From positions 1-40,700 of the IMG/VR virus record IMGVR_UViG_3300023179_000225: a stretch of DNA of 40,700 nt. One strand, given 5' to 3'. The notes under the pieces were generated by a model. It saw nothing but the letters and a program-made list of their open reading frames with translations, was not told the origin of the DNA and searched no databases. Source of the stretch: a virus. Position numbers and translations under genes: made by a program. Positions 2,731 through 8,158 of this stretch are shown in pieces; the first letter of the stretch is position 1, and each line of letters opens with the position of its first letter.

Positions 2731-3407
2731 ATGTTAGACTTGTATCCTACAGCCAACCCACTGAGGAATTTAGACACAGCGGTATCGAGGATGCGCAGGA
2801 CCTCATTGCTTTCTGCGCCCGCGTCAGCAATCCCAGCAATCAGTTCAATACAGAAACAAGCGAAAAACTTATACGATACTTGGTACGAAACAAACACTGG
2901 AGTCCCCTCGAAATGGTCAGTGCCTGTCTCGAAATCACAACCACAAGAGACATTGCCAGACAAATCCTCAGACACAGAAGTTTTAGTTTCCAAGAGTTCT
3001 CCCAGCGATACGCTGACCCTACTAAGGATCTCTCGTTCGTACTTAGAGAGGCCCGCTTGCAAGACACCACTAACAGACAAAACAGCATTGAACTTGGAGA
3101 AAGTATTGAGGACTCAGTGCTTAGAGAAGAGTGGATTCGACAACAGGAAGAAGTCTTACAAGCAGCAAGAAGAGCCTACACTTGGGCTATCAATAAGGGC
3201 ATAGCAAAAGAACAGGCCCGTGCTGTATTACCAGAAGGTTTGATGGAAAGTCGTTTATATATGAACGGTTCTTTAAGATCATGGATACACTATTGTGAAT
3301 TAAGATCTGCACACGGAACACAAAAAGAACACATAGAAATAGCCAAAGCAATTGCTAAAGTTATCTCAGTGGGTTTCCCAATGATGAATGAGTTTTGTAA
3401 TGATTAG
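2727..3407 (+). CDS. thyX: flavin-dependent thymidylate synthase ThyX
   Basis: 226 aa, within the usual ThyX size. Residues 82-95 read RHRSFSFQEFSQRY and contain the diagnostic ThyX motif RHRx7S (R82-H-R ... S92). The segment W58-S-P-LE is also typical of ThyX. The enzyme makes dTMP from dUMP using methylenetetrahydrofolate, NADPH and FAD, so it supplies thymidine for phage DNA synthesis. It is last in a coupled block (ATGA overlap with the preceding gene). A convergent operon begins about 140 bp downstream. Base composition is slightly less A/T-biased in its first half than in the preceding small genes, which may reflect separate acquisition. Confidence 0.95.
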   Translation: MNVRLVSYSQPTEEFRHSGIEDAQDLIAFCARVSNPSNQFNTETSEKLIRYLVRNKHWSPLEMVSACLEITTTRDIARQILRHRSFSFQEFSQRYADPTKDLSFVLREARLQDTTNRQNSIELGESIEDSVLREEWIRQQEEVLQAARRAYTWAINKGIAKEQARAVLPEGLMESRLYMNGSLRSWIHYCELRSAHGTQKEHIEIAKAIAKVISVGFPMMNEFCND

Positions 3408-3510
3408 ATATATTATTAATGGCAACCTCATTATGGCAGATTACACAACAGCATTTTAAATAAATTCGATTTTGTGATTTTAATCTAATTTTTTCTTTAG
3501 TTTAGCAGGT

Positions 3511-3540
3511 GCCAAAGTTATAACCAATATATCCTTTGGC
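3511..3540. terminator. possible bidirectional hairpin between convergent genes
   Basis: GCCAAAG (3511-3517) and CTTTGGC (3534-3540) form a 7-bp dyad with a 16-nt loop in the 141-bp gap between thyX (+) and the nucleotidyltransferase-cupin gene (-). The long loop and lack of a clear T-run on either side make it a weak terminator candidate. The rest of the gap is A/T-rich with no credible gene. Confidence 0.3.
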
Positions 3541-3548
3541 TAACACGA

Positions 3549-4322
3549 TTACTCAATGACTTTACGTTCGATATCATCTTCAATACAGTTTCTACCGTAT
3601 TGAATTTCTACTAATTTAATTGGTAAATCGCTATTGTTTACTAATTGATGCCATTCTTCGTAGTCTATAAAAGCATGATCCCCTTTAGAGTAATTACCCT
3701 TAATAACTAAATTATTATCTTTATCTAGAGTATTGATATACCCTTCACCTTCCATAAAATACCAAAACTCTTTTCTATGAAAATGACGTTGTAAACTTAG
3801 TTTACTATGTGGATTACATACTAATTCTTTTACTTTGGTTTCAGATCCATTTTCATAAACAACCTTATAGTGTCCCCAAGTCTTATCTGTTTTTGGGGCA
3901 GCCCAATTATCTAAAATCCAACTACTAGAATTTCTTTTATTTTCTCCTCCTACCCCAAAAACAAATGATAAATCTGGATAATTCAAACGCATTTCAGGTA
4001 TATTTTCTTTAGTCCTGTCTCCGCCATTAGCAAATACTATTTCATATCCTGGCAACATTTGTCTTACCTGAGTTATGGCATCACAACTACTGTTATCATC
4101 ATCATTATATTCGACAACATAGTATACATCTTTAATATTACGAACAATTTCAGCTCTTTCACTATAGGGCATAAAAGGTCTGCCCTTTTTACGTATCAAC
4201 CAAGCATCGCTATTAACTCCCACTACAAGCCTATCACCTAACTTTGCTGCTTCTTTAAAATAAGCAATATGACCTGAATGTAGTGGATCAAACCCACCTG
4301 TTATTAATACTATTTTATTCAT
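3549..4322 (-). CDS. cytidylyltransferase-like nucleotidyltransferase fused to a cupin
   Basis: 257 aa in two domains. Residues 1-140 are a nucleotidyltransferase of the RfaE/GCT type: GGFDPLHSGH at 9-18 contains the HxGH nucleotide-binding motif (15-18), followed by R60 after SERAEIV and NGGDR at 99-103. Residues 150-250 look like a cupin of the mannose-6-phosphate isomerase C-terminal type, with possible metal ligands H180, H182, E185 and H225. The N-terminal domain should join a sugar- or polyol-phosphate to a nucleotide; the cupin may isomerise or bind the sugar. This suggests a sugar-nucleotide precursor for glycan modification, possibly feeding the glycosyltransferases at 25-27.8 kb (inference). 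The start overlaps the end of the uvsY-like gene by an ATGA junction. Confidence 0.8.
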   Translation of the reverse strand: MNKIVLITGGFDPLHSGHIAYFKEAAKLGDRLVVGVNSDAWLIRKKGRPFMPYSERAEIVRNIKDVYYVVEYNDDDNSSCDAITQVRQMLPGYEIVFANGGDRTKENIPEMRLNYPDLSFVFGVGGENKRNSSSWILDNWAAPKTDKTWGHYKVVYENGSETKVKELVCNPHSKLSLQRHFHRKEFWYFMEGEGYINTLDKDNNLVIKGNYSKGDHAFIDYEEWHQLVNNSDLPIKLVEIQYGRNCIEDDIERKVIE

Positions 4323-4771
4323 AATGAAGCATCCTCCATGCCTGCTATTCTAAGTTTGATTATATTGGTTATTTGCCATTGTTTAATATCTAAAGCTTTT
4401 ACAATACCTAACCATTTATTACGTAATAATGCGAATTCATTTATTAAATTTTCTAATTCTACAACATCTGTTTCACCCTCAACATATCTTTCACAATCTC
4501 TACTACTAAGAGCACGTTGATAGTTTTCTAAATATTTCTTAAAATAAAAACTTTTTGTTCTTCTCAACTCGATATGTAAGTGCTCTAATATAGCTTCTAT
4601 TTCTTGAAGCTGATTAAATCTATGCTCGACTATTCCAGGCATATTGGCACTAGCTTTTTCAATATTGCCAGCAATTTTTGTATCTTGTTTTGCTAGATTT
4701 AACTCATTAGTATAGTAATCTATAGCATCAGGTAATAATGTTATGTCTTTAGATAATTTCGAATACCACAT
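4319..4771 (-). CDS. uvsY: UvsY-like recombination mediator
   Basis: 150 aa, close to T4 UvsY (137 aa). The pattern matches the UvsY core: K-x-FYFKKYL (74-81), RY at 95-96, an L-x2-L-I...LL segment, then RNKWLGIVKALDIKQWQITNI (118-138), corresponding to T4's W-G-I-L-L-D...G-A-L-D...I region, and an R/K-rich, helical ending. UvsY loads UvsX onto gp32-coated ssDNA. The context supports the call: uvsX and gp32 lie just upstream in the same operon. Identity is inferred from this pattern and position, since UvsY is a poorly conserved family. Confidence 0.65.
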   Translation of the reverse strand: MWYSKLSKDITLLPDAIDYYTNELNLAKQDTKIAGNIEKASANMPGIVEHRFNQLQEIEAILEHLHIELRRTKSFYFKKYLENYQRALSSRDCERYVEGETDVVELENLINEFALLRNKWLGIVKALDIKQWQITNIIKLRIAGMEDASL

Positions 4772-4773
4772 GA

Positions 4774-5013
4774 TTAATATTCATCGTCTTCATAATCACC
4801 CTCATCATATTCTTCTTCTACATCGTTTTCTAAATAGTATTCAATAGCAGTATCCAAATCTGGATCTACTCCTAAAGCACCTTGTAGTACTTTGTCCTTA
4901 ATTCCAAAATCAGCTAACAGGTCAACAAACTGTTCTGCTGCTGTGGAAATATCTTCTTTACTCAAAAAATCTTTAAATAAGGTCCAAACTTCGCTTATTT
5001 GTGTGTCATTCAT
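4774..5013 (-). CDS. small acidic protein (79 aa), unknown function
   Basis: A helical N-terminal 55 residues is followed by a strongly acidic tail (EEEYDEGDYEDDEY-like, about 14 of the last 20 residues Asp or Glu). It lies between the displaced uvsX 3' end and uvsY. If the frameshift in the remnant is corrected, the old uvsX reading frame ends in an ATGAATGA overlap with this gene's start. It was therefore probably translationally coupled to uvsX before the insertion at 5.2-6.2 kb. Acidic tails occur in ssDNA-binding partners and DNA mimics, but no function can be assigned. Confidence 0.6.
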   Translation of the reverse strand: MNDTQISEVWTLFKDFLSKEDISTAAEQFVDLLADFGIKDKVLQGALGVDPDLDTAIEYYLENDVEEEYDEGDYEDDEY

Positions 5014-5096
5014 TTTCTACAGTTTCCTCTAAAATGGTTTCCTCTTTAGGTTTGATATTTGGAAAATCTTCGATTATCATATCTAATTTATCATTT

Positions 5097-5112
5097 TTCC
5101 ATTCTTCCATTC
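5097..5112. repeat. 8-bp tandem duplication causing a frameshift
   Basis: TTCCATTC occurs twice in direct tandem here. The homologous place in intact uvsX (6164-6171) has one copy. Removing one copy restores a 30-residue tail ending precisely at the next gene's start. Confidence 0.8.
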
Positions 5113-5160
5113 TTTTCTGTAAAATAAGTGTTCTTTACCCTGACTGTCAACAAATTTAAG

Positions 5161-5242
5161 TCTATTACCCTGTTGTGTTAACAATCCTTTGCCCTCAAAC
5201 AAATCCACTAATCTACTATAAGGATCCATGCCTGTTTCATAA
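5161..5242. repeat. 82-bp direct repeat, copy A (uvsX 3' segment)
   Basis: This copy matches 6220-6301 at 81 of 82 positions; the only mismatch is T at 5213 against C at 6272. It encodes the UvsX segment Y278-R304. The repeats are 1,059 bp apart and bound the segment carrying the FkbM methyltransferase and the GIY-YIG stub. Confidence 0.9.
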
Positions 5243-5313
5243 TAAGCAATAAAGGCCGAAATATTTCCTAGATCTTGTACAACTTGATTGTACCGCATTA
5301 TTTAGCATAAGTT

Positions 5314-5925
5314 TTAAGTTCTAATATAAAGTGCATCACCCCAGATGCCTCCCGGCCAAACAGTTTCAACTCTTTTCATATTATATTCGGTTAGAAAATT
5401 ATCTAAATCTTCTACAAAAGCGTTACCTTCGTAGACTTCAGCACGATTGACTTCTGCATAAACATAGTCAACATACTCTAAAGTTTTTCTAGCTCCTTTA
5501 AGGACTTCTAGTTCATACCCTTGGACATCCATAGCTAGAAAATTATACCCGGTATAATTAAAATTGTCAAGTAGGTCAACCTTGACTTCCTCTAATCCCA
5601 AGAATTGAACATCAGAATGACAAACTAAATGATCTTTAGGTTTTAACAATGAACTACTTTGTTTTTGATTACTGCTAACATACATATTAGCGATATTTTC
5701 TGCTGAACCTAGTGCTAGTTGATGCGTAATAATATTAGCGTTAATATGTTCAACATTACGACAAAGAATTTCATATGACTCGCGCAATGGCTCAAATAAC
5801 ACTAACTCTATTATCCCATGGCTAACATATTCGTTAACTTCTTGTCCGTAATGAGCACCTACATGAATAATTCCTGTAATATTCATTGTGTACTTTTCTA
5901 GCATTTCTTTAAAACTAATTAACAT
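5314..5925 (-). CDS. FkbM-family SAM-dependent methyltransferase
   Basis: 203 aa. The N-terminal SAM-binding loop is VGAHYGQEVNEY (about 22-33), followed by ELVLFEP (an acidic residue ends the second strand), then FLAMDVQGYELEVLKGA, the FkbM hallmark D-x-Q-G-x-E-x2-V-L-x-G. FkbM proteins methylate sugar hydroxyls or similar small-molecule and glycan acceptors. The ribosome site AGGGG lies 7-8 nt before the ATG. The gene sits alone between the two 82-bp uvsX repeats, just after a GIY-YIG stub, so it looks like cargo inserted at the uvsX 3' end. A second FkbM-type domain occurs at 25.8 kb. The family is clear, the acceptor unknown. Confidence 0.88.
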   Translation of the reverse strand: MLISFKEMLEKYTMNITGIIHVGAHYGQEVNEYVSHGIIELVLFEPLRESYEILCRNVEHINANIITHQLALGSAENIANMYVSSNQKQSSSLLKPKDHLVCHSDVQFLGLEEVKVDLLDNFNYTGYNFLAMDVQGYELEVLKGARKTLEYVDYVYAEVNRAEVYEGNAFVEDLDNFLTEYNMKRVETVWPGGIWGDALYIRT

Positions 5926-5936
5926 TTAAATACCCC

Positions 5937-6074
5937 TTATTCGTTATAGTCTTCGTCGTACTTATCTTCGGCATCGCCGGCATGGCTTATTATTTTATGT
6001 TGGCCTATATAGTACCTACCATCAGGTAGTATAGTTTTATATATAAAACCATATGGTCGAGCGATATTAGACAT
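5937..6074 (-). pseudogene. GIY-YIG endonuclease N-terminal stub (45 codons)
   Basis: The ATG (6072-6074) overlaps the uvsX stop by 8 nt and the frame ends in TAA at 5937-5939. Residues 9-25 read GFIYKTILPDGRYYIGQ, matching the two strands that define GIY-YIG nucleases (G-x-IY, then about 8 residues, then YIG). The frame then runs into a short acidic tail and stops, so the catalytic Arg, Glu and later helices are missing and it cannot be an active nuclease of the usual kind. It is most simply the 5' end of a free-standing homing endonuclease that has lost the rest. It could still be expressed as a mini-protein, being coupled to uvsX. Confidence 0.6.
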
Positions 6075-7131
6075 CGGACTCCTCAATGATTGGTTCTTCA
6101 ACAACTGGAACTTTTTTATGAAACTCAGACATTACTAAATCCATTATCCCATTGATATTTTTGTTCCATTCTTTTCGAAAATATTTATGTGTGTTATTAC
6201 TCAAATCAACATAAACATATCTATTACCCTGTTGTGTTAACAATCCTTTGCCCTCAAACAAATCCACTAATCCACTATAAGGATCCATGCCTGTTTCATA
6301 AGGAATCTTGATTTGAATATTTTCAAAGGGCTTAGCATACCTAGTCTTCATAATCTTACAGGCACTACGAATACCCTTGACTTCACTTACCTTATTGCCA
6401 TCTTCATCTTCTTTGAGTTTAAGTTTCTTCATAGCAACTACAATACTTGACGCATAGATAAAACCTTGACCACCACTGATCTTGTCATCTGGATCAAACA
6501 TATCCTGACTGGCATAGGTATGATTAGTAGCAACTAATCCTACGTTATGACTACCAAACATATTAACACAGTTACGAACCAAACTGGTCAATGCCTTGGG
6601 TTTACGACCCATATCACCCTTCATATTACCTGCTTCAAACTGATCTACATCAGTGGGAGTAAGTAACATACCCAAACTATCAATAACAAATAATACTTTA
6701 GGCTTATTATCTTCTGGCATAGCCTTATATTCTTTCATAAACTCACTGATAGTTTTAGCAACATCATCAATCATTGCCATATTCAGTTTGAGTAATTTAC
6801 TTTCGTCTGTGTCTACACCTAATGCTTCAAGCCATGCTTTATCTAGAGCATTTTCACTGTCAACTAGTACAACAAAAATACCTTGCTCTTGAGCATTCTT
6901 AATCAAGTTACCACTACAAATATAACTTTTACCAGCACCACTTTCACCAGCAAATACAGTAACTTTGCCTAATGGTACGCCTTTCTTAAAATCACTGCTA
7001 ATCAAATAGTTTAGAGCATAGTTACCAGTGCTGATCCAATCTGTAGGATCATTAAACCCTACTCCAAGACCATCAATACTTTTTGTCAAAGTTTTTCGAA
7101 ACTTACTTAAATCAAATGCCTTTGTAGCCAT
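6067..7131 (-). CDS. uvsX: UvsX/RecA-type recombinase
   Basis: 354 aa, near T4 UvsX (391). The Walker A motif GESGAGKS is at 62-69 and the Walker B strand LFVID at 147-151. NHTYASQD (203-210) and the ISGGQG loop (219-224) fit the DNA-binding loop region, and the acidic C-terminal tail is typical. It forms filaments on ssDNA and exchanges strands in recombination-dependent replication and repair, with UvsY and gp32, both encoded nearby. The ribosome site AGGAT lies before the ATG. From residue 305 on, the C-terminus differs from that in the displaced copy at 5.0-5.2 kb, so this gene appears to have had its 3' end replaced during an insertion while remaining intact. Confidence 0.95.
   Translation of the reverse strand: MATKAFDLSKFRKTLTKSIDGLGVGFNDPTDWISTGNYALNYLISSDFKKGVPLGKVTVFAGESGAGKSYICSGNLIKNAQEQGIFVVLVDSENALDKAWLEALGVDTDESKLLKLNMAMIDDVAKTISEFMKEYKAMPEDNKPKVLFVIDSLGMLLTPTDVDQFEAGNMKGDMGRKPKALTSLVRNCVNMFGSHNVGLVATNHTYASQDMFDPDDKISGGQGFIYASSIVVAMKKLKLKEDEDGNKVSEVKGIRSACKIMKTRYAKPFENIQIKIPYETGMDPYSGLVDLFEGKGLLTQQGNRYVYVDLSNNTHKYFRKEWNKNINGIMDLVMSEFHKKVPVVEEPIIEESDV
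6220..6301. repeat. 82-bp direct repeat, copy B (inside uvsX)
   Basis: Partner of 5161-5242, with one mismatch. Similarity falls off abruptly at both ends at the DNA level, although the protein still aligns weakly on the 3' side. A sharp boundary of this kind fits a recombination event within a conserved patch of uvsX. Confidence 0.9.
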
Positions 7132-7201: not shown

Positions 7202-8158
7202 TTATTGTTTATTGCGACTACGAATCATAGCTAAGATATCACTAGCTCTGCTGTCAGTACTTTTTGAATCATCTGTAGCTTTTGGTGTAGACTTAGGACT
7301 AGCCTTAGGAGTTGATTTAACTTCAACTTCCATGTCTGGATCCTCTATAGGTAGATCGCTAGCAGGATTATTTGCTACTGGATCACCAGTTTTAGAACTA
7401 GCACCACTTGGCTTATAGTATTGCCCCCAACGACCCATATCAAATGCTTCACCATCTATACTGGCTTCGAACATTTCTTTAATAACTTTCAATTCAACCT
7501 CAGTAGGTTTCTTTGGAAGGAAATCTTTAAGATTAAACAATCCATGTTCTTTCAAAGCATCCTGTTCTTTTTCGCTAAGTGGACGACTACGACGACTCCA
7601 TTTACTAGTCCCATAATCAGCATAACCACCTTTGCTTGATTTGATCAGTTTAAAATCTACTCCATTAACTACGTCAGTGGGTAGATCATCCATTTCTGGG
7701 TCCATCAAAGCCCCTTTGATAAGGGTAAAGATTTGAGGACCAATAATAAACCTACGAATAGGATTTTCTGGTATTTGATCTTCTTTAAGACCATCTTCTA
7801 CTACAAAGCCTTGAAAAAGATAACTACGCTTTTTCCAATACTTACGACCCATTGCTTCAAGGTTAGGATCCTTAAACCAAGGACGCACTTCATTAAGGAT
7901 TGGACAAGATTCACCGTACATTTCCATACAAGGAACCTGTACTGCTACTTTTTTATTGTCAGTTTCACCTTTAATACCAGCGAACTCAAGTTTAATAACA
8001 CTGCGCTCTACCCAAAAGAAGGTATTGCTTTCGTCGCCGTCTGGAAGGAATCTTACTGTGCTTTCGCCGCCTTCTTTTAAATTCCAGAAGGGGTAAATGG
8101 TGAGGTCTCCGCCTCCTGTTGAACCACCTTTAAGTTCTTGCTCTTTAAGTGTTGCCAT
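7202..8158 (-). CDS. 32: gp32-like single-stranded DNA-binding protein
   Basis: 318 aa, close to T4 gp32 (301). The N-terminus has the Gly-rich run followed by WNLKEGGESTVRFLPDGD, the start of the gp32 OB-fold core in T4-like phages. Cys in VPCMEMYG and ESCPILNEVRPW lie where the zinc-binding loop is expected. The C-terminal 70 residues are Ser/Thr/Lys/Asp-rich and end in a helix (DILAMIRSRNK), corresponding to the protein-interaction tail. It coats ssDNA during replication, recombination and repair, and partners UvsX and UvsY. The ribosome site GGAG precedes the ATG. The leader carries direct and inverted repeats that may mediate autoregulation. Confidence 0.88.
   Translation of the reverse strand: MATLKEQELKGGSTGGGDLTIYPFWNLKEGGESTVRFLPDGDESNTFFWVERSVIKLEFAGIKGETDNKKVAVQVPCMEMYGESCPILNEVRPWFKDPNLEAMGRKYWKKRSYLFQGFVVEDGLKEDQIPENPIRRFIIGPQIFTLIKGALMDPEMDDLPTDVVNGVDFKLIKSSKGGYADYGTSKWSRRSRPLSEKEQDALKEHGLFNLKDFLPKKPTEVELKVIKEMFEASIDGEAFDMGRWGQYYKPSGASSKTGDPVANNPASDLPIEDPDMEVEVKSTPKASPKSTPKATDDSKSTDSRASDILAMIRSRNKQ

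Follow-up and report, generated by a model that had tools for sequence, protein, structure and literature searches.

A phage uvsX gene with an exchanged 3′ end, probably captured as part of a tail-replacing homing cassette

How did a phage come to carry the end of its recombinase gene twice, with other genes placed between the two copies? The question is raised by the uvsX locus of IMG/VR virus record IMGVR_UViG_3300023179_000225 (positions 1 to 40,700; this whole 40.7-kb stretch is called the window below), which stems from a large tailed phage, as judged from its genes for a terminase, a tail sheath, a tail tube, UvsX, UvsY and a single-stranded DNA-binding protein. The minus strand carries, in this order, ssb, uvsX, a 45-codon stub, fkbM, a 71-codon frame, an acidic gene, uvsY and a nucleotidyltransferase/cupin gene. 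A first-pass annotation had pointed out two direct 82-bp segments of uvsX with one mismatch, lying 1,059 bp apart and enclosing a replaced uvsX tail, the stub with its GIY-YIG core and a gene for an FkbM methyltransferase, and all of this is indeed present, the repeat copies being located at 5161-5242 and 6220-6301. Comparison with other uvsX loci (designated L001, L009, L081, L089, L090 etc.) reveals that the uvsX gene of the window is a chimera. Its body is L001-like, and the last ~50 codons probably come from a homing cassette, a part of which would have been captured from a third phage lineage into an L001-like recipient.

The uvsX gene (7131-6067; all features described here are on the minus strand) is an open frame of 354 amino acids. 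Codons 1 to ~304 (6220..7131) constitute a body of the recipient type, with 87% nucleotide identity to L001 over 911 nt and an amino acid identity to the same locus of 0.97-0.98 over residues 1-240. In sliding windows of 60 nt the identity of the body amounts to 0.73-0.97 for L001 and 0.60-0.78 for L090 until uvsX nucleotide ~915, past which the two swap in a single sharp switch at GGTAATAGA. This 9-bp sequence (junction A, 6220..6228) is shared by the copies in the window, L001 and L090, and it is here, at a homologous position, that the recipient uvsX changes to the donor uvsX. What follows is a cassette fragment (5982..6228) comprising the new uvsX tail (GNRYVYVDLSNNTHKYFRKEWNKN...EESDV) and the first ~31 codons of a GIY-YIG nuclease gene, with 247 nt being 100% identical to L090, which represents the source type of the cassette. 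L089, retrieved together with L090 by a search with the new uvsX tail of the window, has an identical protein sequence across the new tail and the nuclease start. The block of full identity with L090 stops where the nuclease reading of the window departs from that of L090. Because the cassette piece is identical to L090 and the repeat copies differ at 1 of 82 sites, the events look recent. The identity of the new tail to L090 also led us to reject a simple tandem duplication with later divergence of the copies.

The 45-codon stub (5937..6074, read 6074-5937) retains the GIY...YIG core and matches the homing endonuclease family phrog_314 with an E-value of 1.9e-4. The first-pass annotation saw in it a match to the nuclease needed for homing, which is correct for the N-terminal 33 residues (MSNIARPYGFIYKTILPDGRYYIGQHKIISH), 100% identical to the nuclease of L089/L090, but not for the last 14 residues (47 nt, AGDAEDKYDEDYNE), which are fused to them in frame and derive from the terminal part of a foreign acidic gene (83% identity to the corresponding part of the acidic open reading frame of L090). 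This match implies a deletion through which codon ~33 of the nuclease became fused to an acidic gene of the L090 type. An active homing endonuclease would have complete catalytic and DNA-binding parts; only ~33 of ~225 residues remain here, without the Glu of position 75 or the C-terminal residues that relatives keep invariant, and the stub is very probably inactive. The full-length GIY-YIG gene that relatives had been suggested to carry is found in L089/L090, directly after a uvsX tail identical to that of the window and with the two frames overlapping. It matches phrog_314 with an E-value of 1.8e-19 and is related to SegA of phage T4 (30% identity over the catalytic part); across 17 full-length relatives the GFIY...YIGQHK core and the Glu at position 75 are invariant or nearly so. 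A profile search of PDB sequences with the nuclease returned no matches.

Beyond the stub lies an intact gene for an FkbM-family methyltransferase (5314..5925, read 5925-5314; Pfam PF05050, E=2e-15; NCBIfam TIGR01444, 5e-19, above cutoff), flanked by AATAA on both sides, the acidic-gene end preceding it and a uvsY start following it. The uvsY start forms part of the 71-codon frame (5298-5083), which had been read as the old end of uvsX. The later portion of this frame is indeed a piece of the recipient uvsX, but codons 1-21 (MRYNQVVQDLGNISAFIAYYE, 5236..5298) are the beginning of a foreign uvsY with 86% amino acid identity to the UvsY start of L101; they also resemble L278-L282 (MWYNQVVQDLGNIPAFIIYYE) and are unlike the window's own uvsY, which begins MWYSKLSKDITLLPDAIDYY. 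A search with a degenerate uvsY-start pattern yielded similar uvsY genes in L278-L282, where another gene and no FkbM gene stands between the acidic gene and uvsY. The foreign uvsY is joined to the recipient uvsX at junction B (5236..5242), a 7-bp microhomology, TTATGAA, common to the uvsY of L101 (CCTATTATGAAGTG) and the recipient uvsX (CCTTATGAAACAGG). Both the acidic-gene end and the uvsY start within the unit are of foreign origin. The FkbM protein shows 55-57% identity to homologues of the cyanophages S-SRM01 and P-SSM2, which are encoded there within sugar clusters, and none of 79 further IMG/VR relatives is encoded near uvsX or uvsY; the position of the gene in the window corresponds to the slot between the acidic gene and uvsY, occupied in other phages by unrelated genes. 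On both grounds the methyltransferase is not counted as an established cargo of the nuclease, the role suggested for it earlier.

The left copy of the repeat (6220-6301) is the end of the recipient-type uvsX body, and the right copy (5161-5242; 98.8% identity to the left one) is recipient uvsX leading into the displaced old 3′ end of the gene. The single mismatch is a G in the uvsX copy and an A in the relic copy; the longest exact repeat expected by chance in 40.7 kb is ~16 nt. The old tail (5006..5160; 84% amino acid identity to the native uvsX tail of L001) does lie on the far side beside the acidic gene, as originally noticed, and its original stop overlaps that gene (ATGAATGA, 5013-5006), but a frameshift has to be crossed before this stop is reached. 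The RKEW codons contain an 8-bp tandem duplication (two copies of GAATGGAA, 5097-5112) that separates the old tail from the 71-codon frame and takes this frame out of register before the old stop, so the stranded tail is a pseudogene. L001 lacks the duplication. The RKEW codons are also the place where other cassettes insert; the duplication might have been left behind when a cut at that place was repaired imprecisely, or it might be there by chance, and as we estimate the odds of such a coincidence of position at about 1 in 10, we attach no significance to it. L001 further provides the empty site predicted from the window: its uvsX body runs straight into the old tail, with an equivalent overlap with the acidic gene. 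Downstream, the recipient's own acidic gene (5013-4774; 84% amino acid identity to L001) and its own uvsY (4771-4319; 79% amino acid identity to L001; phrog_231, 1.3e-17) are undisturbed. Farther along, conserved flanks that are 1 kb apart in the window (3331-4329) are ~21 kb apart in the 26.1-kb contig of L001, so a large block beside uvsY differs between the two.

The arrangement of the window occurs also in L081, a separate 183-kb IMG/VR contig (metagenome 3300022752), which agrees with it over 8.6 kb with zero mismatches and one 21-bp gap in ssb. This gap, near the start of ssb (window ~8140-8158, L081 1747-1790), leaves the window without 21 bp (7 codons) and is the sole difference in the 8.6 kb.

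Outside the window, the nuclease recurs at the same position of the same gene. All 28 nuclease relatives with at least 50% identity (28/28, the sister contig L081 included) are encoded immediately 3′ of uvsX, whose frame is uninterrupted there. The family represented by L089/L090, L009 and L093 has the catalytic domain and the conserved catalytic residues of free-standing GIY-YIG endonucleases, occupies a position beside its presumed target that is neither that of an intron nor that of an intein, and is distributed patchily across related uvsX lineages. All loci were scanned for displaced tails by comparing a uvsX-tail profile with the forward readings of the DNA that separates the end of uvsX from the beginning of uvsY. 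Such tails were detected after the nuclease in L009 (2e-4), L093 (2.6e-4) and L089/L090 (6e-4 to 1e-3), and also in L081, which represents the same virus as the window; the best match in a nuclease-free locus was 1.6e-2. The order new tail, nuclease, displaced old tail is thus repeated in L009, L089/L090 and L093, and in each of them the displaced native end matches nuclease-free relatives, as expected of an element that replaces a C-terminus. In L009 the stretch beyond the nuclease aligns with the nuclease-free L011 as one 845-bp piece that begins at uvsX codon ~312, spans the acidic gene and extends into uvsY, and the uvsX tail in use is of another type than the displaced one; in L093 the old tail resumes directly after FRKAW; in L090 the nuclease frame ends in NEDSSLDRVMADFQANPH..., a uvsX tail of the L043/L031 type. 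The match between a displaced end and a nuclease-free relative holds for the window and L001, too, but there the nuclease is broken and extra genes are present. Since the old tails of L009 and L093 resume at the FRKxW codons, these are the likely site of insertion and possibly of cleavage. Tails of the RY type are found in 15 of 19 nuclease-marked loci versus 3 of 77 others, and a tree of uvsX bodies requires nine changes of the nuclease label; support for this tree is weak (stars on 9 of 86 inner branches), and the rows compared are not an unbiased sample. L190, with an internal deletion, and L188, with a truncation, look like later stages of cassette decay; less certainly, L029/L095 are scars of a lost nuclease, their tail match being weak (E 0.28). 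From these comparisons, a tail-carrying homing cassette at the 3′ end of uvsX very probably exists.

The locus in the window would then have arisen as follows. The cassette would be a nuclease gene travelling with a replacement uvsX tail and leaving the old tail of its target downstream, and a donor from the third lineage would have supplied a piece of it together with the end of its acidic gene, the FkbM gene and 21 uvsY codons. The nuclease presumably cuts uvsX at or near FRKxW, and such a cut would have started the transfer. Copying would have begun with pairing of uvsX with uvsX, crossed to the donor at GGTAATAGA, run through the donor to uvsY and switched at TTATGAA into a second, intact recipient genome, returning to the recipient uvsX 82 bp upstream of the point of exit through microhomology instead of closure by homology. 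The 82-bp repeat corresponds to recipient uvsX from the site of re-entry to the earlier site of exit, its first 7 bp being junction B and its last 9 bp junction A. The outcome would be the repeat itself, an open uvsX frame ending in the new tail, and the old tail, left stranded and later frameshifted. We infer that homing drove this transfer.

Several observations weigh against this account or parts of it. The order nuclease fragment, acidic-gene end, FkbM gene and uvsY, to be expected in a carrier, was not found outside L081 by close and distant FkbM searches or by the uvsY-start pattern. The best match of the nuclease in a fold search (Foldseek) is I-HmuI, a weak one (E=8e-3), and its Pfam match falls just under the curated cutoff. 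The starred branches of the uvsX-body tree force only two changes. No old tail was detected in several nuclease-bearing loci (e.g. L101, L109, L170, L171, L178), for which loss of the relic must be assumed, and the tails of four nuclease-bearing loci (L177, L182, L184, L185) are not of the RY type.

The strongest competitor is an ordinary exchange of modules at short homologies between phages infecting one cell, in which the nuclease was carried along passively in this instance. Both joins are only 7-9 bp long, the nuclease fragment in the window is unable to act, and unrelated genes (radical-SAM-like and others) are frequent in the interval concerned, all of which would suit such an exchange. 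Nevertheless, the block of full identity starts in the uvsX tail and stops in the nuclease gene, that is, it is part of a cassette seen elsewhere as a unit, and the nuclease family is restricted to one position and recurs across uvsX lineages; we therefore consider passive exchange unlikely, while granting it a real share of the probability.

Considerably less probable is a clean intronless homing event, as the first-pass annotation had envisaged, in which the nuclease, its own uvsX tail and the FkbM gene as cargo were inserted in one step and left the repeat as their mark. The new tail, the nuclease piece and the old tail do stand in the expected order, and L009, L089/L090 and L093 look like products of such homing with a replacement tail. 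The window, however, does not contain a single insertion flanked by repeated target sequence. In L009 and L093 no upstream uvsX is repeated and the old tail starts again at FRKxW, whereas its restart in the window lies 82 bp ahead of the crossover; the nuclease runs into part of a foreign acidic gene; no relatives of the FkbM gene were found near uvsX; and the right end of the unit is a piece of foreign uvsY, which by itself contradicts a one-step insertion. Nor does the unit behave as an element that duplicates its target site, with a repeat made from the target at insertion and constant insert ends, because the repeat ends at matches of 7 and 9 bp that the recipient shares with two different donor genes and because the cassette-bearing L009 and L093 lack the repeat. 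Finally, an assembly chimera of two coexisting phages joined via the 82-bp repeat, an artefact of the kind the first-pass annotation had named as a possible refutation, is very unlikely and is rejected, for although assemblers can be misled by short repeats and mixed strains, L081 independently carries the same 8.6 kb apart from the ssb gap, the 7 bp shared at junction B are too few to let an assembler connect the two sides, and the relic has its own mutations.

Partial capture of a homing cassette from a third lineage thus remains the explanation we favour, and uvsX and its surroundings receive other insertions as well. An insert splits the Walker A loop of uvsX (GESG/SGKS) at window-residue 66 in L092 (2765-4216) and L157 (2750-4195), and also in L098, L120, L153, L166 and L186. 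The frame is open through the insert in L092 and L157 (484 and 482 amino acids), which suggests a mini-intein, and a search with Rfam detected no group I intron in the six interrupted uvsX loci tested. In L115 (2445-3818), L117 and L118, ~1.4 kb interrupts uvsX at about residue 218-221. The interval between uvsX and uvsY is a hotspot for unrelated genes of 1-2 kb (radical-SAM-like and others) in L031, L039, L040, L043, L049, L053, L070, L164 and L278-L282, none of which has a GIY-YIG gene of the cassette family. L135 (1626-3401) has directly after uvsX a 591-amino-acid reading frame that by eye resembles an endonuclease of another type, so other nuclease families may use the 3′ position of uvsX too. 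The FkbM gene of the window has a parallel in L003 (3371-4039), where a different gene, methyltransferase-like by eye, overlaps the stop of uvsX and is followed by the acidic gene.

More generally, we see about even chances that GIY-YIG cassettes of large environmental T4-like phages target FRKxW and exchange the C-terminus of UvsX, the recombinase that homing itself requires, repeated rounds producing chimeric UvsX proteins, stranded tails and, at second joins formed by short homology, sometimes dragged neighbours such as FkbM. A system of this kind would explain the C-terminal shuffling of a core recombinase, and it carries the warning that uvsX trees can mix two histories. It offers a concrete predicted cleavage site, FRKxW, and its stages are visible in one gene, from the empty site through the intact nuclease with a displaced tail and the broken nuclease to a probable bare scar. 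The window itself illustrates how such an exchange can, by accident, move a nearby gene from one phage to another. The open-access literature yielded no description of a phage cassette that replaces the tail of uvsX, which is weak evidence given that subscription papers were largely outside this search.

Among known systems, the phage cassette appears as a counterpart to mobile elements of fungal mitochondria that bring their own gene end. In atp6 of Allomyces macrogynus and in atp6, atp9, cox2 and nad3 of Glomus, an endonuclease reading frame directly follows an in-frame foreign C-terminus and the native C-terminus is displaced downstream, and that study states that the nuclease has been shown biochemically to be responsible for the mobility of the elements (PMC3630166). 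The foreign C-terminus, the nuclease frame and the displaced native C-terminus are all paralleled in the phages. The differences are that the phage target is a recombinase gene and that the nuclease is a GIY-YIG enzyme of the phrog_314 type, whereas in Glomus only the atp9 element has a GIY-YIG nuclease and the others have LAGLIDADG enzymes (PMC3630166); the window departs further by its dead nuclease, its extra foreign genes and its 82-bp repeat. Like the Seg enzymes of T4, the nuclease of the phage cassette is a free-standing GIY-YIG protein encoded beside uvsX. According to the relevant passages of a review, SegA cuts uvsX, and in T4 homing a processed end invades the donor and primes copying; the same passages on SegA describe no replaced uvsX tail accompanied by a displaced old one (PMC2988022). 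By annotation, T4 segA lies 5′ of uvsX, between b-gt and uvsX, which makes it an analogue at a different site. SegB of phage T6 drives segmental amplification via UvsX/UvsY recombination (PMC13096335), likewise a case in which phage DNA is duplicated through the action of a Seg GIY-YIG nuclease, with the difference that resident loci are amplified there under immune pressure, whereas a foreign gene end was captured in the window. Set against these systems, the cassette family would work like a free-standing homing endonuclease equipped with a replacement gene end, and the window would represent a degenerate capture of it, joined through microhomology.

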